A model generated the notes under the pieces. It saw only the letters and a program-made list of their open reading frames with translations. It did not search any database and was not told the origin of the DNA. Positions 904 to 21,485 of a stretch of 21,485 bases of DNA are shown here, piece after piece. The stretch's first letter is position 1; the number at the start of each line of letters is the position of its first letter. This stretch comes from a virus. The translations under genes were made by a program, and so were the position numbers. The DNA is taken from positions 1 to 21,485 of IMG/VR virus record IMGVR_UViG_3300017760_000129; one strand, written 5' to 3'.

Positions 904-2367
904 ATGGCCAGAAAGATTAATATATATGCAAATTTTGATACCACAGCGGTAACTGATCCGGAAAGAGAATATTATAACTTGCCAAGAAATGAATTACCGA
1001 TATTTAACCAGACTACTGCTAGTACAAGTATTGAAATACTTGAAAATTCTCCAGTAGATAAGTTAGTATTTTCAACAACAGGTATTGACGGTTATGGTTA
1101 TAACGATACAACCTTCAATTTTGATAATAATTATTTTAAGAACCAAATTATTTATTTTACTGTTAGAGTTAAAACTCGAAATAATTATCCAGCTAAATAT
1201 TTAAATAATTTAAGTCTTGGTAATGGGTCTAATATTGATACTATATCAATAGATTTAAAAGATCAAAATAATAACTCTTTAGCTGCTACTATATCCAGTG
1301 ATTTTGGTATATTATCATCAGATACCGTTGGAGGCTTCTTTAAAGGGGCTTTTCAATATGATGGTTCAGCAAATAATGTTAAATTAACAGCAAAAGCGAC
1401 TGTAGGTCTAAGTGGTATACCTATAGATGGTGAAAGTAATACGTTTAATATTGTACCTGTTAGTGATAGTAAAGAATTTCGTAAGATAAATGAAAATAAT
1501 AATCAAAAAGATAATTTTATAAATTATTTATATCAACCAAATTTAAGAGATAACCCAAAATTCTTTACCGATATTATAGGTCAAATAGTTGGAGATGCAA
1601 ATAATCCTAACACTTTAGGGGTAAAGGTTTATGAAAAAATATCTAACTTTTTATTAAATTCAAGTGACATAGAATATGCAAATATTGATAATTTAATTAG
1701 TAATATGAAACTAATCGATAGTAATGTTAATAAATTTTCAGAAAGCTACCCAGCCAGTCTAAAACGTATTGTTGATTTTTTCAGTGTTAATCGCTCAAAG
1801 ATAATACCTATAAAAAATAAATTTAGTCAAGATTTTAATGATAAAGGTCGAGCTGATAGCGGTTTAGGTAAAAATTTAGGTAAAGAAATAAAACTTTCTG
1901 ATACTCTATCAGGTGGAGATAATTTCAAACCTATAGTAGCTTTTGAAAAATTTAGTCAAAGATATTATATGCTTAATACTGACCCAACTAGTGGTTTTGA
2001 TTTTAGATATTTAGGAACTAATAAAACTTATCAAATATCATCTTATAATATAAATTGGGGTTGGGGATTAGTTTTACCTGATGGGATTGGTGATTTTACA
2101 TATATGCTAGATATTAGTGGTAATAATTTAGTATTAGAAAATGGTTTTAGAATTCTAAATGAAGATAGAGGTTTAGATACTAATGATATATCAAAATATT
2201 ATACTTTCTTTGAATATATTTCAACTTTTAATAATAGTAATATATTTGCATTTTATGATGATGCCAATGTAAATTCTACTAGCGATGTATCATCTTTAAG
2301 TGCTATTAATAATAGTATTGATGAAATTATATTAAAAGACATTTACTCGGGTACAAATTTAATTTAA
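904..2367 (+). CDS. Tail/baseplate-associated structural protein, 487 aa
   Basis: The product has no catalytic motif and the Asn/Ser/Thr-rich, beta-strand-rich composition of phage fibre and baseplate proteins. Residues 1-190 form a beta-rich N-terminal part containing the stretch FTVRVKTRNNYPAK. Residues 200-320 are more helical and polar. The C-terminal part, from about 340, contains PIVAFEKFSQRYYML and later SSYNINWGWGLVLP, a pattern I associate with structural proteins of T4-like marine phages; this is recognition from memory, not a search. The ATG at 904 follows a perfect TATAAATA box and is the first gene of the fibre cluster, 73 bases ahead of the 1325-aa gene. A peripheral baseplate or fibre-attachment role fits but is inferred. 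Confidence 0.7.
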   Translation: MARKINIYANFDTTAVTDPEREYYNLPRNELPIFNQTTASTSIEILENSPVDKLVFSTTGIDGYGYNDTTFNFDNNYFKNQIIYFTVRVKTRNNYPAKYLNNLSLGNGSNIDTISIDLKDQNNNSLAATISSDFGILSSDTVGGFFKGAFQYDGSANNVKLTAKATVGLSGIPIDGESNTFNIVPVSDSKEFRKINENNNQKDNFINYLYQPNLRDNPKFFTDIIGQIVGDANNPNTLGVKVYEKISNFLLNSSDIEYANIDNLISNMKLIDSNVNKFSESYPASLKRIVDFFSVNRSKIIPIKNKFSQDFNDKGRADSGLGKNLGKEIKLSDTLSGGDNFKPIVAFEKFSQRYYMLNTDPTSGFDFRYLGTNKTYQISSYNINWGWGLVLPDGIGDFTYMLDISGNNLVLENGFRILNEDRGLDTNDISKYYTFFEYISTFNNSNIFAFYDDANVNSTSDVSSLSAINNSIDEIILKDIYSGTNLI

Positions 2368-2425
2368 TTGAATTTTAATACTTTAGTTTTAAATAGATAT
2401 ACGAAAATTGATATATAATTTTCAT

Positions 2426-2433
2426 TATAAATA
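2426..2433 (+). promoter_or_regulatory. T4-like late promoter box for the 1325-aa gene
   Basis: A perfect TATAAATA lies seven bases before the ATG at 2441, inside the 73-base gap between two fibre genes. No Shine-Dalgarno sequence is visible between box and ATG. The rest of the gap is A/T-rich with no convincing terminator hairpin. Confidence 0.7.
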
Positions 2434-2440
2434 TTAATAG

Positions 2441-5400
2441 ATGTCTTTATCTCCTACATATCAAAATTTAAGTGCTTTATCTCCTTTATATTTTAAAGAT
2501 TCTGATGAAAAACTAGAATTTATTAATAAAGATAAATTTACATTACAAGGTTTAAACTTAGTAACATATAATATAAATCAAAGTGCTAATGATAGTTTTA
2601 TAAAAAATTATTCTGTGAATAATTTGATAAAAGATAAAAATTCTAATGAAATTTTTAATTTAACTAATAAAATAGATACTCAGGATTTAAATACAAAATT
2701 AAATTTTAAAGCTACTCAAAGTACGTTAAGCGCCACGTTCTTTTTACAAGCTATAACGACTAATGATGATAAAGAATCACCAGCAAAGTTTAATATTGAT
2801 GCTAAGAATCTTAATGGTACAAAATTTTTAGTAGATTTCGTAAATAAAGATTTTTGTACAGTATCATTTTTTGATGGTAAAATTCCTAAATTTTTATACG
2901 ATGCCAGTCGAGATGCATTGGTTTTTAAATTTTTAAATACTGCAAATTTACCATTAACTTCATTTTATTATTTTAATTATTTTTACGATAGTCAAAATAA
3001 AAAATTAAGATTATATAAAAATGATAATGTAGTAACTACTGTAACTACTATATTAACTACAAATTCCCAAGCAATATCTACCGGTTCTGATGGTTATCAA
3101 CTATTTATTAATACTGTATTATCAGCAGAAATAGATTCTATAGGTTTGTTACCAGCAAATACTGATAGATTGTTAAATGGTACGATAGGTGTAGGTAATG
3201 AAATAAAATTATTAAACAACGATAACATAGATCAATTTATATACTATGATTTTCAAGATAACTATAGACTATCAAACGATACAGTTAGTGGGGTTAAATA
3301 TGATTTTTTAACTTATTATACCTATTCTAATGTAATAACAGGTGATAAAAATTATGCTAATTTAAAGTTTTTTAATCTAAAGAATCATATATCTAATGAT
3401 AATATTGCTTACGGGGGACCATTAGAAAATAGAGATGATGATTTTGAATATAGAGGTAGGGAATATCAAAATTTTACTAATCAAAAAAGTAAAGAAACTG
3501 ATTATGATAATATATCATTAAATTATACATTTTTTGATAAAGAGTATAAAATTGGTTCAAAAGACTATACAGCGTTTACATTACCAGGGGATTTATTTCC
3601 ATTCCGCAAAATTAACATAAACGATACAGGTTTAGCAACAAATGGGTCATTTGCTGCGACTAGTCCATATTTTAGTGATAAAGTATTTAAACTTACAGAT
3701 AAAAATAAAAATAAATTGCAAGATAGCTTTATAGAAGATCAAGAATTTTTAGTATTACAAGATGATGTAAGTTTAGTTGTTTTACAAAGTGGAGATTTGT
3801 TAGGTTTTCAAAGTATAAATGATACCCAGTCAAATGATATTTTTGGAGATTATTTATGTACATGGTTAAAAGGCGATGGTGTTACTAAAGGTATATGGTT
3901 TGATAGATATTATCTACCTAAAGATAATTCATACACCGTATCATTCTCAGGTAATTCAAATATTTTCGATACCACTACCCAAGCAGCTGAATATTTTAAA
4001 AATAATGAAACTGATTTAGTTTATTACGATTTGAAAAGTAATTTAACTTTTGAACCAAGTGCATCGTATGGCTATCAGCGAATTAACAAAAAGCAAATTA
4101 ATGCTTATATCGACGGTCAAAAGGATAAGTTAATAAAGGATTCATTTAGTATCCAAACATCAGCAGTACAGATACAAAATGTTGATGAAGTAAATCTTAA
4201 TGATACTAAAGGTTACGATAATATAGATATTAAGTCAATACCTAATAGAGATTTTAATATTGGTTTTGAACTCGAACTAGACTCCCTATCATCTTTAGAT
4301 TCATTTCAGCTAGCTGGTAATTTATATGAAGACGGGTTTGCTTTGAAAAATAACTTTTTCTTCACACCATTTATATTTATACCTCAAGGTAATGTGCTTC
4401 ATATATATGATAATAATTTAAAGTTATTAAGATCAAATACATATACAGATACAGAAAATATATTAGACGTACTTTATATAGAACAAAATAATAATATAGT
4501 TTTAGTTTGTGATAATAAATTAATAAAAACTAATTATTTTGGTGAAATATTAAATGAAAGATACCCAGCTGACGGAGGTGCTAATAGTGATTTAATATTA
4601 GAAATAATTAAATCATATGTAAGTAAAACTTACCATGGTTACAATAATGTATTTTTTATAACTAATCAATATTTAACTAATAACAAAATTATTAATTTAG
4701 ATTTAAACAATCTTATACCAGTTGAGAATACGGTTTTACAGCAACAATATCTATCTGACCCGTTATCAGCTTTTTCACAAAGTATTGTACCAACAATTAC
4801 TGGTAGTTATAGATTTCTTGTCGGTATTGAACCGAATAAATTAAACAATGATGTTGCATGTTCATTACAAAATGTTGATAGATTTATATCTAAGCAATTT
4901 ATACCAGGGGATGCTTTTTTAACAACATCATTATCATCCGAACTAAGTAGTGGTATAATACAAGGTCAGTCTTATGATGAAAATTATTATACCGTTATTC
5001 AGACAGCAACCGGTGAACCAACTTTTAATAGTACATTTTTAACTTTTTTCGACTTTATACAAGATGGAAGAGCTAGAATTGTTTTCGATAATTTAGAAGT
5101 AGTCCAAAATGAAGACCCAATTTTAGATAGTATTAACGCAAAAATTTACGATATTAACTCAGTTAATGAAAGATTATTTGTACAATATGTAAACTTAACA
5201 GCTGGTAAAGGGTTTGTACAAGAATTTACACCAGAAAGATTTAAACTATCAGCATATGAACTCAGTGAAACGGTAAATACTGGTTATAAGATAGATTTTC
5301 TTGAGGAAAATAAAGAATTAAAGATAATGTCATTTGCAAGAGACTTATCATCAAATATAGTTGTAGATAAGATAAACGCGACTACTGGTAACCTTGAAGA

Positions 5401-6418
5401 AACGTATAACTTATCATTAACTGGGATTGATACTGATAGACAAACAGCATATGCTACTAATGAAGAAATACCTGTATCGACATTCGGGACTAATTCATTA
5501 ACTGCTCTTTACCCGAAAGGTTTATACAAATACAGAAGAATAGAAGGTAATGCATATGAAGATATTATCGCATTCAATTCTGGACTATCTACTAAATTTG
5601 ATACGTTATTGAGTAATAAATTACATTTCACACCTATTAATTACCATGCAATAGATCAAAAGTATAACTCTTATAGAGATCAAATAGTGTTTAAATTTAA
5701 CTTAAACTCTTTAATTGATATTGAAACTTTAACCGAATTATGGAATAATGCAGGACCGCCTCTATCAGCCACCGGTCATTCAGCATTTACTTGGAATACC
5801 CCAGCCTCATCATTAAGTGGGTGGGATGGAGAATTTTTACCGGTCAATTCAGAAAATGTAACTAATGTTGAAATAATATTTGTTGTACCTAATATTTCTA
5901 TTAAAAATTATTTTAATTTAGATTTAGATTTAAATTCAGGTAAAATAAAACTATACAATAATGGTTTATTTTTCGGTGAAATATTTTTTAACCCTAATTT
6001 GATACCAATTGAAAGAATTATCTACCCAGAATTATTTTTAAATACTCAAAATATTCGCAATATACCTATTGACGAAATAATAAAAGACATTTCATATAAT
6101 AGTTCAGGCGGTACCTTAAAAAACTTTAAAGTTCATAATACATCATTTGATCAAAGTTTAATAAACTATTTAGAATTACAGACTAAACAAATAGATCCTT
6201 TATATTTTAGAGTACCATGTGGTACGAGAAATAGTAATGAAGAAATCGATACGCTATTTACATATAATATACCGGGTAATATTAGTAATTATATAAAAGT
6301 GAACATTAAAGATATTGATATAAATAATGATATTAAACAGAAATTAATTGATTATTTACAAAGTTCTGTAAAAGTTGTCACCCCATCTCAACAAAAATTA
6401 ATTTATAACATCGATTAA
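2441..6418 (+). CDS. Very large tail fibre/baseplate structural protein, 1325 aa
   Basis: This is the longest gene in the window. The protein is Asn/Asp/Ser/Thr-rich and almost entirely beta-strand-like, with no signal peptide, membrane segment or catalytic motif that I can see. Residues about 650-710 contain short alternating hydrophobic strands (for example VLHIYDNNLKLL and NNIVLVCDNKLIKT) that resemble beta-propeller blades, like those of the next protein. The segment around residues 380-500 has Trp/Gly/Asp-rich turns that could belong to a lectin-like sandwich. The last 180 residues again look like a separate globular unit, ending PSQQKLIYNID. The ATG follows a TATAAATA box by seven bases, and the next gene starts three bases after the stop. 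It is probably a long fibre or a baseplate-to-fibre connector; the exact role is inferred from size, composition and position. Confidence 0.7.
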   Translation: MSLSPTYQNLSALSPLYFKDSDEKLEFINKDKFTLQGLNLVTYNINQSANDSFIKNYSVNNLIKDKNSNEIFNLTNKIDTQDLNTKLNFKATQSTLSATFFLQAITTNDDKESPAKFNIDAKNLNGTKFLVDFVNKDFCTVSFFDGKIPKFLYDASRDALVFKFLNTANLPLTSFYYFNYFYDSQNKKLRLYKNDNVVTTVTTILTTNSQAISTGSDGYQLFINTVLSAEIDSIGLLPANTDRLLNGTIGVGNEIKLLNNDNIDQFIYYDFQDNYRLSNDTVSGVKYDFLTYYTYSNVITGDKNYANLKFFNLKNHISNDNIAYGGPLENRDDDFEYRGREYQNFTNQKSKETDYDNISLNYTFFDKEYKIGSKDYTAFTLPGDLFPFRKININDTGLATNGSFAATSPYFSDKVFKLTDKNKNKLQDSFIEDQEFLVLQDDVSLVVLQSGDLLGFQSINDTQSNDIFGDYLCTWLKGDGVTKGIWFDRYYLPKDNSYTVSFSGNSNIFDTTTQAAEYFKNNETDLVYYDLKSNLTFEPSASYGYQRINKKQINAYIDGQKDKLIKDSFSIQTSAVQIQNVDEVNLNDTKGYDNIDIKSIPNRDFNIGFELELDSLSSLDSFQLAGNLYEDGFALKNNFFFTPFIFIPQGNVLHIYDNNLKLLRSNTYTDTENILDVLYIEQNNNIVLVCDNKLIKTNYFGEILNERYPADGGANSDLILEIIKSYVSKTYHGYNNVFFITNQYLTNNKIINLDLNNLIPVENTVLQQQYLSDPLSAFSQSIVPTITGSYRFLVGIEPNKLNNDVACSLQNVDRFISKQFIPGDAFLTTSLSSELSSGIIQGQSYDENYYTVIQTATGEPTFNSTFLTFFDFIQDGRARIVFDNLEVVQNEDPILDSINAKIYDINSVNERLFVQYVNLTAGKGFVQEFTPERFKLSAYELSETVNTGYKIDFLEENKELKIMSFARDLSSNIVVDKINATTGNLEETYNLSLTGIDTDRQTAYATNEEIPVSTFGTNSLTALYPKGLYKYRRIEGNAYEDIIAFNSGLSTKFDTLLSNKLHFTPINYHAIDQKYNSYRDQIVFKFNLNSLIDIETLTELWNNAGPPLSATGHSAFTWNTPASSLSGWDGEFLPVNSENVTNVEIIFVVPNISIKNYFNLDLDLNSGKIKLYNNGLFFGEIFFNPNLIPIERIIYPELFLNTQNIRNIPIDEIIKDISYNSSGGTLKNFKVHNTSFDQSLINYLELQTKQIDPLYFRVPCGTRNSNEEIDTLFTYNIPGNISNYIKVNIKDIDINNDIKQKLIDYLQSSVKVVTPSQQKLIYNID

Positions 6419-6421
6419 AAT

Positions 6422-8392
6422 ATGTCAGCAAATAATATAACAACGGATTTTTATGTTGGTCAAGATCTAGAAAACACTTCTAGTGATGAATATAAATCAA
6501 TAATAACCTCAAAAAAAGTAGCATTTTCGGATGGAAATGAATTTACTTTTGATGGGGTAAATTACACTGGGTATTATAATTATGATGGTACTAATTTTTA
6601 CAAAACTAAAACATTAAAAGATGATAAACTAACAGTTGTAGAAAATATCAATACTGATATATTAAATTCTAATAAATTCTTTGATCGAACTATCTTCACT
6701 AAATTAAACCCTTCATATGTTTTAGATGATATTTTATTCAAACCAAATGAAATAATAAATAAAAATTCGATAAATTTCAAACTTAATTTATTATATGATA
6801 ATTTTATAGATTTATATAGATTTTCAAATATAAATAATCCTTTAATACCAACTGATTTTAATGCTTATGCAGTATTATCAACTACATCAACAAATACTGA
6901 GTGGCAGTGGGTATCTTCAGATGTTAGATTTATTTCTGGAGGTCTAGACCCAAGCTTAGTTTCTTTTTCAGCTTATAATGAACAATTTTTTGCTGTAGAT
7001 AAAATGAATACTATTGCATTAAAAAGTACTAAAGTACCTGATGAATATACATTATTCGTAACTACAAGTTCATACTTATTTGCGTATCAATTAGACAGAG
7101 ATGATACGATGTTTGACTTTGTATTAAGTGCAGATTCAATTGGTATAGACGGTAAACTAAGATTCGAAAATATTACTAGTATTGCAGCTGATAAAGAAAA
7201 TAATATTCTTTATTTGAATGATAGAGGTAAGCAACAAATATATAAAGCTGATACAAAAACTATTATTAATAAAGATCGTACAGGTGTTAGACAAATTCAA
7301 CTATTAGAAACTATAGGTGGTAAAGGTAGCGATAATACTAACTTTAATGATAACACTTATATTGAATATGGTAACGGCAATATATTTGTATATGATGATA
7401 TTGATAAAAGTATAAAAAAGTTTAGTGATAAATTCGTTTTTAAACTTAGATATGCTAATAAAAATTTATTTGAAGAAAATAAATTTGTTAGTATGACATA
7501 TAATACCACATTTGATTTATTATACGTTTTAACTGAAACTTATAGAGTGGTTGTATTAAATGCTAATAATTTTGAAGAAATTGATAGGTATGTCTTAACT
7601 AGTAACCCTTTTGAATTTGCTATACCTCTTATAGGTAAATTTGAATTACCAAGTAAAATAGTTTTTTCTAAAAATGATAGTAATATTTACTACCTACAAA
7701 CTACAAAAAATGTGTATAAATATTTTTTAAATACTCAAACTAAAAATATAGAAAGATTTACTATTGATATAAATTTTGATTCTGTATCTTTGTGGAATAC
7801 AGTATTTGCTAGATTTTCTGCTTATGAAGTAGAATGGGATGATCTACCTGATTTTGATAAATTTGCAATAGCATCAAACGGGTTACAAATAATTGATAGT
7901 GATGTAGTAGATACAGATAAATTATTATTATGGTCTAATAAAAGGGTATTTAGTTTTAATGAAGATAATAATTATGTTTCTTTATTAAACACTAGTAGAC
8001 CTAATTTTTATAAGAAAAGTGAAATATTTATAAAAGATGAATATTTTAATAATATAACGTTTAATTCTACTATATTCAGGCATTTATTTAACTTAAATTT
8101 ATTAAGTTCAAATTTAAATAAACAACTACTTGCAGTTTTTGATACAATAGAAACTGACGGTTATCTAAGATTTAAAGACTTCCTAGAGCTATCGCATGAA
8201 GATAAAGAAATATTAGATTTAAATAATCAAAAGCAATACTTTGCTGGAGTTAATGAAACCCTAAATGGTAATACATTGAATAGAATAATGACAAATCTTT
8301 TTGAATATCAAAATAATATTATACAGTCTGTTGAAACTAAAATAATTGGTGAAAGAATACCCATTTTAAAGACAGTACTATTAGATAAATAA
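6422..8392 (+). CDS. Fibre/structural protein with beta-propeller-like repeats, 656 aa
   Basis: Residues about 170-450 hold repeated blade-like units of alternating hydrophobic strands ending in Asp/Asn turns. Examples are ITSIAADKENNILYLNDRG, then IEYGNGNIFVYDDIDKSIK, then FDLLYVLTETYRVVVLN. This is the look of NHL/SMP-30-type beta-propellers, which often bind ligands or glycans. The N-terminal 150 residues are Asn/Asp-rich and beta-like. The C-terminal 100 are more helical and may mediate assembly. The gene starts three bases after the preceding stop and has no late box or Shine-Dalgarno of its own, so it is probably translated from the upstream transcript. A receptor-recognition role is inference. 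Confidence 0.7.
   Translation: MSANNITTDFYVGQDLENTSSDEYKSIITSKKVAFSDGNEFTFDGVNYTGYYNYDGTNFYKTKTLKDDKLTVVENINTDILNSNKFFDRTIFTKLNPSYVLDDILFKPNEIINKNSINFKLNLLYDNFIDLYRFSNINNPLIPTDFNAYAVLSTTSTNTEWQWVSSDVRFISGGLDPSLVSFSAYNEQFFAVDKMNTIALKSTKVPDEYTLFVTTSSYLFAYQLDRDDTMFDFVLSADSIGIDGKLRFENITSIAADKENNILYLNDRGKQQIYKADTKTIINKDRTGVRQIQLLETIGGKGSDNTNFNDNTYIEYGNGNIFVYDDIDKSIKKFSDKFVFKLRYANKNLFEENKFVSMTYNTTFDLLYVLTETYRVVVLNANNFEEIDRYVLTSNPFEFAIPLIGKFELPSKIVFSKNDSNIYYLQTTKNVYKYFLNTQTKNIERFTIDINFDSVSLWNTVFARFSAYEVEWDDLPDFDKFAIASNGLQIIDSDVVDTDKLLLWSNKRVFSFNEDNNYVSLLNTSRPNFYKKSEIFIKDEYFNNITFNSTIFRHLFNLNLLSSNLNKQLLAVFDTIETDGYLRFKDFLELSHEDKEILDLNNQKQYFAGVNETLNGNTLNRIMTNLFEYQNNIIQSVETKIIGERIPILKTVLLDK
8384..8391 (+). 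promoter_or_regulatory. Late promoter box (GATAAATA) for the first S74 fibre gene
   Basis: GATAAATA differs from the T4 late consensus at one base and lies five bases before the ATG at 8397. It overlaps the end and stop codon of the preceding gene. The spacing matches the other boxes in the window. Confidence 0.55.
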
Positions 8393-8396
8393 TTAT

Positions 8397-9239
8397 ATGT
8401 CAACCAATATAACAGGTTTAGCAGGTGAAATAATAGCTTTCACATACCCCTCACTTATTAAAGTATCCGACAACGGTAATATGCCAACCACAGATGGTGG
8501 TAATAGAAATGCAAATGCGGTTTTTACCCATCCTAATAGATCTGAATTACCTACAGCTTTATCAAGATTATCAGACGGCAGTGGTGTTGTAAGCTCATTA
8601 GCAATAGGGCCACAGAATGGAGGAGCTAAAATATTTGGCCCTCTGATAGTACAAGGTGATTCAGGTACCGTTACATCAAAAACACTTGAAATTAAAAATG
8701 GAGGTCTTTGTCTTTTATGTCAAATTTGTGCAGCAGGTACAGGTACCCATACTATTAACGGTACCACACAACTAGGTACATTAAAAGTTACTGACGGTTC
8801 AACTTTATGCGGAGCTATTTTAGGCTGTAATAATTTAGTAATATGCGGTACTTCTACTTTACATGGTTGTACGACGCTAAACGGTGGTCTTAACGTTGCA
8901 AGTGGTAATCTTTTAGTCACCGGTACTATTGACGCTACTGGTGATATTACAGCATTTAAAACATCAGATAAAAGACTTAAAAATAATATCATTAAAATTC
9001 ATAATTCAAATGATGTAATTAATAGTTTAAACGGCTATAAATATGAATGGGATAAAAAAGCTACACAAACCGGAGAAGATGTTGGTGTAATAGCTCAAGA
9101 AGTTAAAGAATTTATACCTTCTGCAGTTAGAGAAAATGAAAAAGGTTATCTATCAGTAGATTACGTAAAACTTATACCATACTTAATTGAAGAGGTAAAA
9201 AGTTTAAACAATAGAATTAAAATATTAGAGGAGAAATAA
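8397..9239 (+). CDS. Tail fibre protein with C-terminal S74 intramolecular chaperone, 280 aa
   Basis: The C-terminal region from about residue 185 is a Peptidase_S74 domain. It has the signature TSDKRLKNN, then GVIAQEV, then VDYVKLIPYLIEEVKSL, which is the closing coiled-coil helix. In this family the Ser and Lys of the S-D-x-R-L-K motif (here S190 and K195) form the self-cleavage dyad that releases the chaperone once the trimer has folded. Residues 60-180 form a Gly/Thr/Ser-rich stem with strand-like repeats typical of trimeric fibres. It is unusually cysteine-rich: C105, C108, C111, C138, C144, C150 and C158. A GATAAATA box lies five bases before the ATG. The stop overlaps the start of the paralogous downstream gene by one base (TAATG). 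Self-processing is inferred from the conserved dyad. Confidence 0.88.
   Translation: MSTNITGLAGEIIAFTYPSLIKVSDNGNMPTTDGGNRNANAVFTHPNRSELPTALSRLSDGSGVVSSLAIGPQNGGAKIFGPLIVQGDSGTVTSKTLEIKNGGLCLLCQICAAGTGTHTINGTTQLGTLKVTDGSTLCGAILGCNNLVICGTSTLHGCTTLNGGLNVASGNLLVTGTIDATGDITAFKTSDKRLKNNIIKIHNSNDVINSLNGYKYEWDKKATQTGEDVGVIAQEVKEFIPSAVRENEKGYLSVDYVKLIPYLIEEVKSLNNRIKILEEK
9227..9233 (+). promoter_or_regulatory. Strong Shine-Dalgarno site for the second S74 fibre gene
   Basis: AGAGGAG, containing AGGAG, ends five bases before the ATG at 9239. It is the clearest Shine-Dalgarno sequence in the window. It fits a start that overlaps the previous stop and therefore depends on internal initiation or coupling rather than on its own promoter. 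Confidence 0.7.
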
Positions 9240-10003
9240 TGGCAACTTTATTAGGGAAAAATATAAATGAAACTTATACAGGTTTACTAAAAACCTTCAA
9301 TAGTAATACATTGGCTTCATCTAATCAAATTTCAGATGGTTTAGGTGAGTTAACAGCTTTAACATTAGGCAGCGCTGGTAATGGTTCTTCTTTTGATAAT
9401 TCATTAGTAGTTGGTACTACTTTACTTGCTTGCAATGCTCTTACCACTAATAGCAATCTATGTGTAAAAGGTTCAGGCAAGTTTGATAATAATATAATTG
9501 TTACTGGTAACACCCTTGTAAGTGGTAGTTTAACAGCTGCAGACTTTTTATTTGCTGGTTCGGGATCGTTTAATGGTGGTATTACATTTAATAATGCGGT
9601 AAGTATTTGTGGGGTATCGAATACAAAAGATACAAACCTAACTGGTTGTATGGATATTACAAGTGATTTAACTGTAGGTGGGACTATTAGTGCTGCTGGT
9701 GATATTATTGCTTTTAATACATCTGATAGTAGATTAAAAGAAAATTTAATTCCAATTGATTCTGAAAATTTTGTTAGTAATTTAACCGGTTATGAGTTTG
9801 ATTGGAATGAAAGATCTAAAAGATCTGGTAAAGGTAAAGGAATCATAGCTCAAGACTTATACAATATTGATAAGAGTTTAGTTAGAGAAAACAGCGACGG
9901 TTATCTTACAGTAGACTATACAAGTCTAATACCTGTACTAATTGAAGAAGTTAAAAGATTAGGTAAAGAAATAGATTACTTAAAAAGCTTACAAGATAAT
10001 TAA
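9239..10003 (+). CDS. Second, paralogous tail fibre with S74 chaperone domain, 254 aa
   Basis: The C-terminal region from about residue 158 is a Peptidase_S74 domain: TSDSRLKEN, GIIAQDL, then VDYTSLIPVLIEEVKRL. The expected dyad is S162 and K167. The stem at about residues 30-155 has strand-like repeats similar to the preceding protein; both share an SDG-x-G element followed by an L-x-[IL]-G and L-[IV]-V-x-G pattern. Cysteines at 65, 75, 124 and 137 again lie in the stem. The two proteins differ throughout the stem, so this is an old duplication rather than a recent copy. Its ATG overlaps the upstream stop by one base behind a strong AGGAG site. Its stop overlaps the convergent PKD-protein gene by four bases. 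Trimeric fibre assembly and self-cleavage are inferred from the family. Confidence 0.88.
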   Translation: MATLLGKNINETYTGLLKTFNSNTLASSNQISDGLGELTALTLGSAGNGSSFDNSLVVGTTLLACNALTTNSNLCVKGSGKFDNNIIVTGNTLVSGSLTAADFLFAGSGSFNGGITFNNAVSICGVSNTKDTNLTGCMDITSDLTVGGTISAAGDIIAFNTSDSRLKENLIPIDSENFVSNLTGYEFDWNERSKRSGKGKGIIAQDLYNIDKSLVRENSDGYLTVDYTSLIPVLIEEVKRLGKEIDYLKSLQDN

Positions 10004-19387: not shown

Positions 19388-20179
19388 ATGTTAGTATCTC
19401 ATGAAAGTCCGATTAGTATTTTAGATAAATCTCTATCATATAACGATTATGATTATGCGTTAGTGCATTTATTTGAAACCCACCCTCAGTATTATAACTA
19501 TTTTAAAAATAGTGTAAAAATAGGTAGAGAAGTTCTTTTAGATAATAGTATTTTTGAACTTGGAGAATCATTTGAACCGGGTAAATTTGCTAAGTATGTA
19601 AAGCAACTTAAACCATCTTATTATATTGTACCAGATGTATTAGAAGATGGATATGCTACTATTAAAAGCTTTCATGAATTTACTACAAAATATACAAAGT
19701 TACCTGGATTAAAAATAGGGGCAGTTCAAGGTAAAACTTATGATGAAATAGTAGATTGTTATAATTATATGTCAGAAAATGCTGATTATATTGCAATTAG
19801 TTTTGATTTTAGTTATTATATTGTAACTGGTAAAGGTAAATCTAAATTAGAAAGATGGTGTGATGGTAGAAGAAGATTAATAGAACAATTGAAGAAAGAT
19901 GGTATTTGGAATAATCAGAAACCTCACCATCTATTAGGTTGTTCATTTGCTAAAGAATTTAAAAACTATGTAGGTGATAAAACTATTAGATCAGTTGATA
20001 CGTCTAATCCAGTAGTAGCTGGTATTAAGGAACTTAGATATACTGGTAATCTAGGATTAAATGAGAAACCTTCAATTATGTTGGCTGATTTAATTGATCA
20101 TGAGGTTACAGATACGCAAATGGAAGATATAGAATATAACGTTAATTGTTTTAAAGATATAATTGGTCATGGTTATTAG
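19388..20179 (+). CDS. dpdA: DpdA-like DNA guanine transglycosylase, 263 aa
   Basis: This is a compact member of the tRNA-guanine transglycosylase (TGT) superfamily. The residues that define the TGT pocket can be placed in order: LLDNS (D52, S54) for the D102/S103 region, VPDV (D83) for D156, GAVQG (Q114) for Q203, LLGCS (G184) for G230, and SVDTSNP (D204) for the nucleophile D280 (Zymomonas numbering). The C-terminal C-x-C-x2-C...H zinc site of tRNA enzymes is absent, and the protein is about 100 residues shorter. Those features fit phage DpdA proteins, which exchange guanine in DNA for preQ0-derived bases. It starts a plus-strand cassette, overlaps the kinase gene by 11 bases, and is followed by queF. 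A tRNA-directed role cannot be fully excluded. Confidence 0.82.
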   Translation: MLVSHESPISILDKSLSYNDYDYALVHLFETHPQYYNYFKNSVKIGREVLLDNSIFELGESFEPGKFAKYVKQLKPSYYIVPDVLEDGYATIKSFHEFTTKYTKLPGLKIGAVQGKTYDEIVDCYNYMSENADYIAISFDFSYYIVTGKGKSKLERWCDGRRRLIEQLKKDGIWNNQKPHHLLGCSFAKEFKNYVGDKTIRSVDTSNPVVAGIKELRYTGNLGLNEKPSIMLADLIDHEVTDTQMEDIEYNVNCFKDIIGHGY

Positions 20180-20717
20180 TTTTACAGGAGCTCAAAGTAC
20201 TGGTAAATCTACTTTACTTAGTAAGATGCAATTAGAAGAAAGATTTAGAAAGTTTAATTTTGTCCCGGAAATAACTAGAGGTTTAAAAAAGAAATATAAT
20301 TTAAATATAAATGAAGGTGGAGATGAACTGACTCAATTGATAACAGTTAATAGTCATTTATATAATTATCTAGATCATAAAGGTAGGGATGTTATATTGG
20401 ATAGATGTATTTTGGATGGTTTAGTATATACTACATATCAATATCATATGAAGAAAGTATCTAAAGAGGTATATAATTATAGTGAGTATCTCTTTAAGAA
20501 ATTGATTGGTGAATTAGATATTATACTATATACAGAACCTGATATCCCCTTAGTAGATGACGGTGAGCGTAGCATAGATAAAGAGTTTCGTGATATAGTA
20601 GTTAACTTATTTGAAGAAGCAATTGATCATTATAAGATAAATGTAATTAGGTTAAGTGGATCAGTTGATAATCGTATGAAAACAATTTATAATATAGTAG
20701 ATAATTATGGCAAATAA
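20169..20717 (+). CDS. P-loop NTPase / nucleotide kinase of the AAA_28 (NadR-like) type, 182 aa
   Basis: A Walker A motif GAQSTGKST lies at residues 7-15 straight after the first strand. EITR at 34-37 and VILDR at 75-79 follow the pattern of NadR-type and deoxynucleoside kinases, where the D-R pair binds substrate. LDIILYTEP at 116-124 is a core strand. D-G-E-R-S-x-D-x-x-F-R at 131-141 looks like the Arg-bearing lid. I choose the ATG at 20169; an in-frame TTG two codons upstream is possible but less likely. The gene overlaps dpdA by 11 bases and queF by 11 bases, so the three are almost certainly one operon with coupled translation. The substrate cannot be read from the sequence; nucleoside, nucleotide or a modified-base intermediate are all possible. 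Confidence 0.8.
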   Translation: MVISFTGAQSTGKSTLLSKMQLEERFRKFNFVPEITRGLKKKYNLNINEGGDELTQLITVNSHLYNYLDHKGRDVILDRCILDGLVYTTYQYHMKKVSKEVYNYSEYLFKKLIGELDIILYTEPDIPLVDDGERSIDKEFRDIVVNLFEEAIDHYKINVIRLSGSVDNRMKTIYNIVDNYGK

Positions 20718-21485
20718 AGAATTAGATAATAGTAGAATTAGCAAGCATCTAGGTCAAACGTCTCAATATAAGAGTGCGTATGATTCTGGGTTGCTTGTAA
20801 GAGAACCTCGTAGTAATAATCGAGTATATTTAAATATATTTGATGATGATTTACCTTTCGTAGGATCTGATACATGGAATGCTTATGAATGTTCATTCCT
20901 TTTAGATAATGGACGACCTGTAACTGGAGTTGTAAAGTGTGTATACCCCTGTAGTAGTAAGTATATTGTTGAGAGTAAAAGTATTAAGTTATACTTTAAT
21001 TCCTTTAATATGACTAAAATGGCTGCTGATAAAGATAAAGCTGTTGCTGCATTTGAAAATACTGCAAGTAAAGATTTAAGTAGATTACTACAGACTGATG
21101 TTGAGGTTAAATTCCAAGATGGTGATCGCGTTAATAAGAAATTCGATAGTCCTAATATGGAATGGGAGATCGATGATTTCCATAATGTAGATCTACTAGT
21201 AGATGATAAAGATTTTATATATACTCAATATACTGAGGACCCTAGCCTATTAGAAGGTGTTATTCGTGAAAGAGATTTAGAGCAAAAGTTTTATTCAGGT
21301 CTATTAAAAAGTAATTGCCGTGTTACTTCGCAGCCTGATTGGGGTGATGTATTCATTTATATTAAATCTAAGACTGCTATAGATGCTCATAGTATTAAGA
21401 ATTATGTTGTATCATATAGAGATGAGTGTCATTTTCATGAAGAGATATGTGAATGCTTTTATAAAAGATTAAAAGATGCTTTCGA
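20707..21485 (+). CDS. queF: QueF, NADPH-dependent preQ0 reductase (partial, 5' part)
   Basis: QueF reduces the nitrile of 7-cyano-7-deazaguanine (preQ0) to the amine preQ1 using two NADPH. The 259 visible residues align by eye with the long, two-domain type of E. coli (282 aa). The matches are YKSAYDSGLL and LPFVGSDTWNAYE in the N-terminal half, the QueF signature ESKSIKLYFNSFN at 89-101, and the catalytic KSNCRVTSQPDWG with nucleophile C204 and acid D211. FHEE at 243-246 supplies the substrate-binding His/Glu. All key residues are present, so the enzyme should be active. The gene overlaps the kinase by 11 bases and runs off the right edge, missing roughly the last 40 residues. Next to dpdA, its likely purpose is supply of preQ1 for DNA; a role in tRNA queuosine is the alternative. 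Confidence 0.93.
   Translation, partial: MANKELDNSRISKHLGQTSQYKSAYDSGLLVREPRSNNRVYLNIFDDDLPFVGSDTWNAYECSFLLDNGRPVTGVVKCVYPCSSKYIVESKSIKLYFNSFNMTKMAADKDKAVAAFENTASKDLSRLLQTDVEVKFQDGDRVNKKFDSPNMEWEIDDFHNVDLLVDDKDFIYTQYTEDPSLLEGVIRERDLEQKFYSGLLKSNCRVTSQPDWGDVFIYIKSKTAIDAHSIKNYVVSYRDECHFHEEICECFYKRLKDAF

Follow-up and report, generated by a model that had tools for sequence, protein, structure and literature searches.

In the DNA of the Campylobacter phages CP220 and CPt10, 100% of the deoxyguanosine (dG) is replaced by dADG, and several other phages contain about 0.1% dADG or less (PMC8306585). Phages that carry dPreQ1 and phages that encode DpdA together with QueF are already known: dPreQ1 has been measured in the DNA of Dp-1 and HVTV-1, and in Dp-1 it makes up 1.7% of G (PMC6884629). 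Reviews describe the insertion by DpdA as post-replicative, taking place in the DNA polymer (PMC12707154, PMC12783734). For the dADG phage MED16 the timing of modification is unknown (PMC8306585). How guanine comes to be replaced in full is unsettled: it is difficult to imagine every G being exchanged after replication, and the kinase described below offers an alternative. Cui et al. 2023 reportedly gave one subfamily the name DpdA3 and linked it to full dG replacement.

We analyzed a stretch of viral DNA of 21,485 nt (IMG/VR record IMGVR_UViG_3300017760_000129, positions 1-21,485), called the window here. As the initial annotation had observed, three overlapping genes on the + strand lie at its right-hand end. 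These are dpdA (19388..20179), encoding a DpdA3-type guanine transglycosylase of 263 aa; a gene for a P-loop kinase of the nucleoside/nucleotide type (20163..20717, 184 aa); and queF (20707..21485, at least 259 aa), encoding an NADPH-dependent preQ0 reductase of the two-domain type. The overlaps are 17 nt between dpdA and the kinase gene, which starts at a TTG codon with an in-frame ATG at 20169, and 11 nt between the kinase gene and queF. The queF frame runs from 20707 to the contig edge, and its 3' end is missing; an uncut queF of 309 aa (L009:3610-4539) is present on another contig (L009), which encodes a DpdA 100% identical to that of the window. Many other IMG/VR contigs show this overlap of three genes and DpdA relatives are encoded on at least 545 IMG/VR stretches, so the operon is not a product of chance.

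Matches to Pfam and PHROG place baseplate and tail-fibre genes beside the operon, which bears out the earlier call of a phage. On one side is a - strand baseplate module (gp25-like, gp5/hub-like and wedge proteins), and on the other, where relatives extend further, another group of genes on the - strand. As part of the overall explanation developed below, we tentatively read the carrier as a marine T4-like phage and the operon as the part of a DpdA3-type 7-deazaguanine system that carries out the insertion. Elsewhere in the window, three large ORFs at 904-8392 (487, 1325 and 656 aa) have no PHROG match and, judged from their neighbours, are probably tail or fibre proteins. Two adjoining genes at 8397-10003 both match the same C-terminal tail-fibre PHROGs (5668 and 8215), and look as if they were duplicated receptor-binding tips.

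The DpdA of the window had no match in Pfam, NCBIfam or PADLOC, and matched PHROG 19058, which has no assigned function. Because searching its profile against the sequences of solved structures returned chance matches only, fold comparison was needed. The AlphaFold (AF2) model (pLDDT 92.5) has a TGT fold, aligning with the archaeosine TGT 1iq8 over 235 aa (VIA Z 17.7, rmsd 3.1) and, over its full length, with tRNA-guanine transglycosylases (Foldseek, 2pot, E 2e-9). Its conserved residues are D52, D83, Q114-G115, H181-L-L-G184 and D204; the three aspartates are invariant in 27 sequences, and Q114 is conserved in at least 90%. In an hhalign comparison with E. coli TGT that is weak by itself (E 0.06), D204 faces D264, which we take to be the TGT nucleophile, and Q114-G115 lies in a VQG motif matching the IQG of TGT, with Q114 facing the Gln of IIQG. 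D52 and D83 would fit the other two TGT aspartates, a placement made by motif order only.

The nearest named relatives of this protein are in Flavobacterium phage immuto (50% identical) and in the Campylobacter phages CP220, CPt10 and CP21 (46-48%); the identity to the CP220 and CPt10 proteins is 46-47% over 99%. More distant relatives occur in Cellulophaga phiST, Chryseobacterium MA9V-3, the Bacillus BSTP phages and Weizmannia Youna2. An hhalign comparison of the DpdA profile with the 9g DpdA gave no significant match. The window DpdA groups with the CP220 kind, for which 100% replacement is reported, and not with the 9g type, where replacement is partial, so we would expect replacement of dG in this phage probably to be near-complete as well. 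The class is the one that we take to be DpdA3. Searches of IMG/VR for distant relatives with the BSTP12 and CC_R7 DpdA proteins found nothing, and the net charge and pI of the proteins, taken as a sign of DNA binding, did not separate the DpdA classes.

The queF product matched both Pfam domains above their gathering scores (QueF_N, PF14819, 2.6e-31; QueF, PF14489, 1.6e-13), and among solved structures a bacterial QueF is its best match (PDB 3bp1, 1.2e-32). Residues C204, D211, H244 and E245 are invariant in an alignment of relatives that includes the Dp-1 QueF, and the ESKS motif at E89 is conserved in the two-domain members. The pairing of a DpdA-like transglycosylase with a competent-looking QueF in one overlapping operon, as first proposed, holds up. 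The uncut L009 protein scored 240 bits against TIGR03138, under the equivalog cut-off of 293, and we accordingly file it in the QueF family at the Pfam level and not as that equivalog. QueF and QueF-L are hard to distinguish by sequence; since dPreQ1 is found in Dp-1 DNA, the window enzyme likely forms preQ1 (PMC6884629). Judged by its sequence, this QueF looks competent and likely reduces preQ0 to preQ1.

The initial annotation had usefully suggested looking to the right of the window for queC, queD, queE and folE. These genes, which would supply preQ0, are found in longer relatives, folE in some of them. The window is a 21-kb fragment, so their absence from it carries no meaning. One relative, with a DpdA 95% identical to that of the window, carries queC (G007); two others carry queC, queD and queE (G001, 83% identical, and G002, 64%); and a fourth adds folE to these three (G006, 67%). 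CP220 carries queC, queD and folE. For this phage, dPreQ1 is the simplest prediction and a fair one, with a derivative of preQ1 also possible; at other loci, gene content leads us to expect preQ1, formyl-preQ1 or carboxy-deazaguanine. In clusters of the immuto type, a phosphoribosyltransferase-like gene (L003:9834-10229) lies near queE and folE, and its relatives (cluster 8) are found near dpdA in other contigs.

The middle gene of the operon encodes a kinase with the Walker A motif GAQSTGKS, which matched AAA_28 (PF13521, 8.6e-16; 59 bits, gathering score 27) and PHROG 2107, named 'thymidylate kinase' (2.6e-32). Its AF2 model (pLDDT 92.2) is nearest to the ribosylnicotinamide kinase domain of NadR (Z 18-19) and then to deoxynucleoside and thymidylate kinases (Z 16), and a VDDGxR stretch is common to this protein and the NadR kinases. 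We rejected an assignment to NadR itself, as the TIGR01526 score was 36 bits against a cut-off of 341 and only the kinase part was matched. The fold points to a P-loop kinase of the nucleoside/nucleotide type, with either a nucleoside or a nucleotide as candidate substrate. Among the matches listed from a collection of 50,697 phage records, close relatives (at least 35% identity) occurred in DpdA3 phages only.

This kinase is not an oddity of one operon; it proved to be a constant partner of this DpdA class. We took a census of 152 loci, partly redundant and containing 115 distinct dpdA sequences; 145 of these have 700 bp or more of downstream sequence, and an AAA_28 kinase is present in 130 of the 145, where in most cases it overlaps dpdA or starts within 20 bp after it. 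Fourteen of the remaining 15 have an AAA_28 kinase about 7 kb away or a P-loop kinase of a different kind. Three of the exceptions are short re-fetches of L036, L040 and L042, with the kinase about 7 kb downstream, and three further ones also have an AAA_28 kinase about 7 kb away. BSTP12 and Youna2 encode a PHROG-761-type kinase immediately upstream of dpdA, and MA9V-3, phiST and L121 an AAA_18-type P-loop kinase in the same position; in L122-L124, which gave identical match scores, an AAA_18-type kinase lies about 1.5 kb upstream. Only one of the 145 loci, on a MAG contig (L205), shows no kinase. In L036, L040 and L042 the intervening 7 kb consists mainly of - strand genes between dpdA and the kinase-queF pair, and this block, common to several contigs, may be a mobile or inserted module.

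The dpdA-linked kinases thus fall into three families that profile search did not join, the A2 kinase profile having left the kinases of BSTP12, MA9V-3, phiST and Youna2 undetected. By comparison, in a small control sample of six loci from other DpdA classes, no nucleotide kinase was found among the dpdA neighbours of 9g, CAjan, RHEph06 and Dp-1, by P-loop scan and annotation, or of Typha and Finch, by annotation alone; the neighbours there include polymerase, clamp, ParB-like and que genes. A mirror-tree comparison of DpdA and kinase gave r 0.87, with the placement of CC_R7 unsure owing to a long branch, but we do not lean on this value, as shared phage descent would also give a high correlation. 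We regard the linkage of kinase and dpdA as a strong finding. The dpdA-kinase unit is what is new here; the literature may hold an earlier mention of the linkage.

Phage CC_R7 provides a natural replacement of this unit. It is assigned to Firehammervirus and shares 93.84% BLASTn identity with CP220 (PMC12398825). The dpdA-kinase pair of CP220 (L004:8001-9361) is missing from CC_R7, which instead has one divergent dpdA (29% identical) and an adjoining divergent kinase gene (21%) at L103:4385-5728. This pair sits between queC and the DNA polymerase gene, which adjoin each other in CP220; at the DNA level this queC shows 73% identity. The two genes were displaced together by very divergent versions at another place in the genome and so behave as one unit. 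Beside its dUTPase gene, CC_R7 has retained a further paralog of the kinase, and the kinase linked to dpdA is therefore more than just the thymidylate kinase of the phage. Second kinases of the same family are found near queE/queD in two relatives, at L116:9467-10285 and L117:3047-3820, and next to dUTPase in CC_R7, at L089:6545-7081.

What might such a kinase do? It is constant across phages with different base chemistry, so its target is unlikely to be the 7-substituent and is more likely to be the sugar or phosphate end. A target there would imply a free deoxynucleoside or nucleotide, and hence a base exchange before polymerization. We therefore propose the following route. FolE, QueD, QueE and QueC of phage and host would make preQ0, the nitrile of which the operon's QueF would reduce with NADPH to preQ1. 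DpdA, which has the catalytic residues of a tRNA-guanine transglycosylase, would then swap guanine for preQ1 irreversibly, so that most or all of the dG in the virion would become dPreQ1. In this DpdA3-type enzyme the substrate would be a small molecule, deoxyguanosine or dGMP; the adjoining kinase would phosphorylate the preQ1 deoxynucleoside or its monophosphate, and conversion to the triphosphate and incorporation by the polymerase would follow. It is conceivable that two kinases act in sequence. As a whole (a preQ1 operon, a DpdA acting on a small molecule, a kinase and a polymerase), this is our best explanation, tentative and not far short of an even chance. The analysis itself shows the order of the genes, their folds, the conserved residues and the linkage; which base is made, how much dG it replaces, at what substrate level DpdA works and what the kinase phosphorylates are deduced from these. 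Genes of the dGTP-removal type (MazG/HD) occur near dpdA in immuto, phiST and CP220, but a MazG search (PF03819) of 13 records gave a weak match in phiST only, and we rejected such genes as a general partner of dpdA because they are not conserved. This, like the failure of protein charge to separate the DpdA classes, counts against the proposed route.

The main rival keeps the same base but has DpdA insert preQ1 in place of guanine once replication has produced the DNA polymer, with the kinase serving as a dNMP kinase for nucleotide supply that is co-transcribed because both proteins serve genome synthesis. This is the published description of DpdA (PMC12707154, PMC12783734), and DNA is modified in vivo by the DpdA1 of phage 9g, which means that an enzyme of this fold can work on the polymer (PMC6884629). 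The kinase could indeed simply serve nucleotide pools, given the thymidylate kinase name of its PHROG family and the paralog beside dUTPase in CC_R7. Moreover, Cui et al. 2023 are said to have argued for post-replication insertion by all DpdA classes, and Crippen et al. 2019 reportedly found no dADG phosphate in cells infected with firehammerviruses. Polymer-level insertion leaves unexplained, however, why three kinase families are repeatedly found at dpdA genes of the DpdA3 class and not at those of other classes, and why the pair in CC_R7 was displaced as a unit despite the second paralog. We consider this rival a serious possibility, if a somewhat doubtful one. Owing to the published post-replicative view and the reported absence of dADG phosphates, we give somewhat less than half our credence to the pre-replicative route, in which the base would be exchanged by an enzyme with a TGT fold while the deoxynucleoside or nucleotide is still free, and the product would reach the polymerase through a dedicated kinase that has been recruited repeatedly.

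A separate question, and one that overlaps with the other explanations, is whether dPreQ1 is only an intermediate and the final base a derivative such as formyl- or methyl-preQ1, which would be the product of a gene located elsewhere in the genome. Among loci with at least 3 kb downstream of dpdA, 44 have both a formyltransferase-like gene and queF near dpdA, as immuto does, and a 185-kb relative (G001) has a gene with a formyltransferase domain away from dpdA. Cui et al. 2023 reportedly described preQ1 derivatives. There is no formyltransferase gene beside the dpdA of the window, however, which resembles the 58 comparable loci that have queF without one, and Formyl_trans_N had no match in the relatives G002, G006, G007 and G021, some of them fragments. 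We consider a derivative unlikely here, though far from negligible.

P-loop kinases in phage DNA-modification operons are a known arrangement, and the kinase might phosphorylate the modified base within DNA, as the 5-hydroxymethyluracil DNA kinases of thymidine hypermodification do. Yet position 7 of preQ1 and ADG lacks a hydroxyl, kinases of this family occur in phages with and without queF, the reported base of CP220 is unphosphorylated dADG, and the nearest folds are nucleoside and nucleotide kinases, all of which make this reading very improbable. Least probable is that DpdA acts as a TGT on host or phage tRNA and that the operon boosts queuosine: the fold would suit this, and so would QueF and preQ1 as parts of the tRNA pathway, but the protein is shorter than bacterial TGT (263 aa as against 375 aa in E. 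coli), the phages that carry its nearest relatives have fully substituted DNA (PMC8306585), the gene hardly occurs outside virus contigs (at least 545 IMG/VR stretches, compared with 4 MAG contigs among 84,980 genomes), and the window contains no tRNA gene.

The pre-replicative route, if true, would run against the accepted post-replicative view of DpdA. A dpdA-kinase pair working on nucleotides would open a new route to DNA of four letters in which G is a different base, would explain why replacement reaches 100% in this DpdA class and is far lower in others, and would offer enzymes for the preparation of modified dNTPs. Because the two genes are small, overlap and are present in hundreds of virus contigs, whether the base is exchanged before or after replication is directly testable with them.

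Of the described systems, Flavobacterium phage vB_FspM_immuto_2-6A comes closest to the window, as its dpdA, kinase and queF genes (50%, 36% and 44% identical, respectively) follow one another in the order seen here; it has queD, queE and folE upstream of them and queC in the genome. It differs in having a formyltransferase-like gene between dpdA and the kinase gene, where the window trio overlaps directly, and a PRA-PH/MazG-type gene two genes upstream. The initial annotation is thus partly supported in its interpretation: the trio is real, but a preQ1 phage is not new in kind, given dPreQ1 in Dp-1 and HVTV-1 (PMC6884629) and the trio of immuto. The firehammerviruses CP220 and CPt10 share the DpdA (46-47%) and an adjoining AAA_28 kinase (38-40% identical), but no queF was found beside the pair, no firehammervirus matched the window QueF, and their base, which replaces 100% of dG, is ADG and not preQ1 (PMC8306585). 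Dp-1 and HVTV-1 resemble the window in encoding QueF, and their DNA contains dPreQ1; the Dp-1 operon has both dpdA and queF, but its DpdA is related to the 9g class, its queF is short, no kinase lies nearby and 1.7% of G is replaced. As a comparison of working principle only, the PurZ phages with dZ (2-aminoadenine) start from synthesis at the dGMP level, followed by phosphorylation and incorporation by the polymerase (PMC12783734); the window has no PurZ-type chemistry, and its base would instead be swapped in by a transglycosylase.
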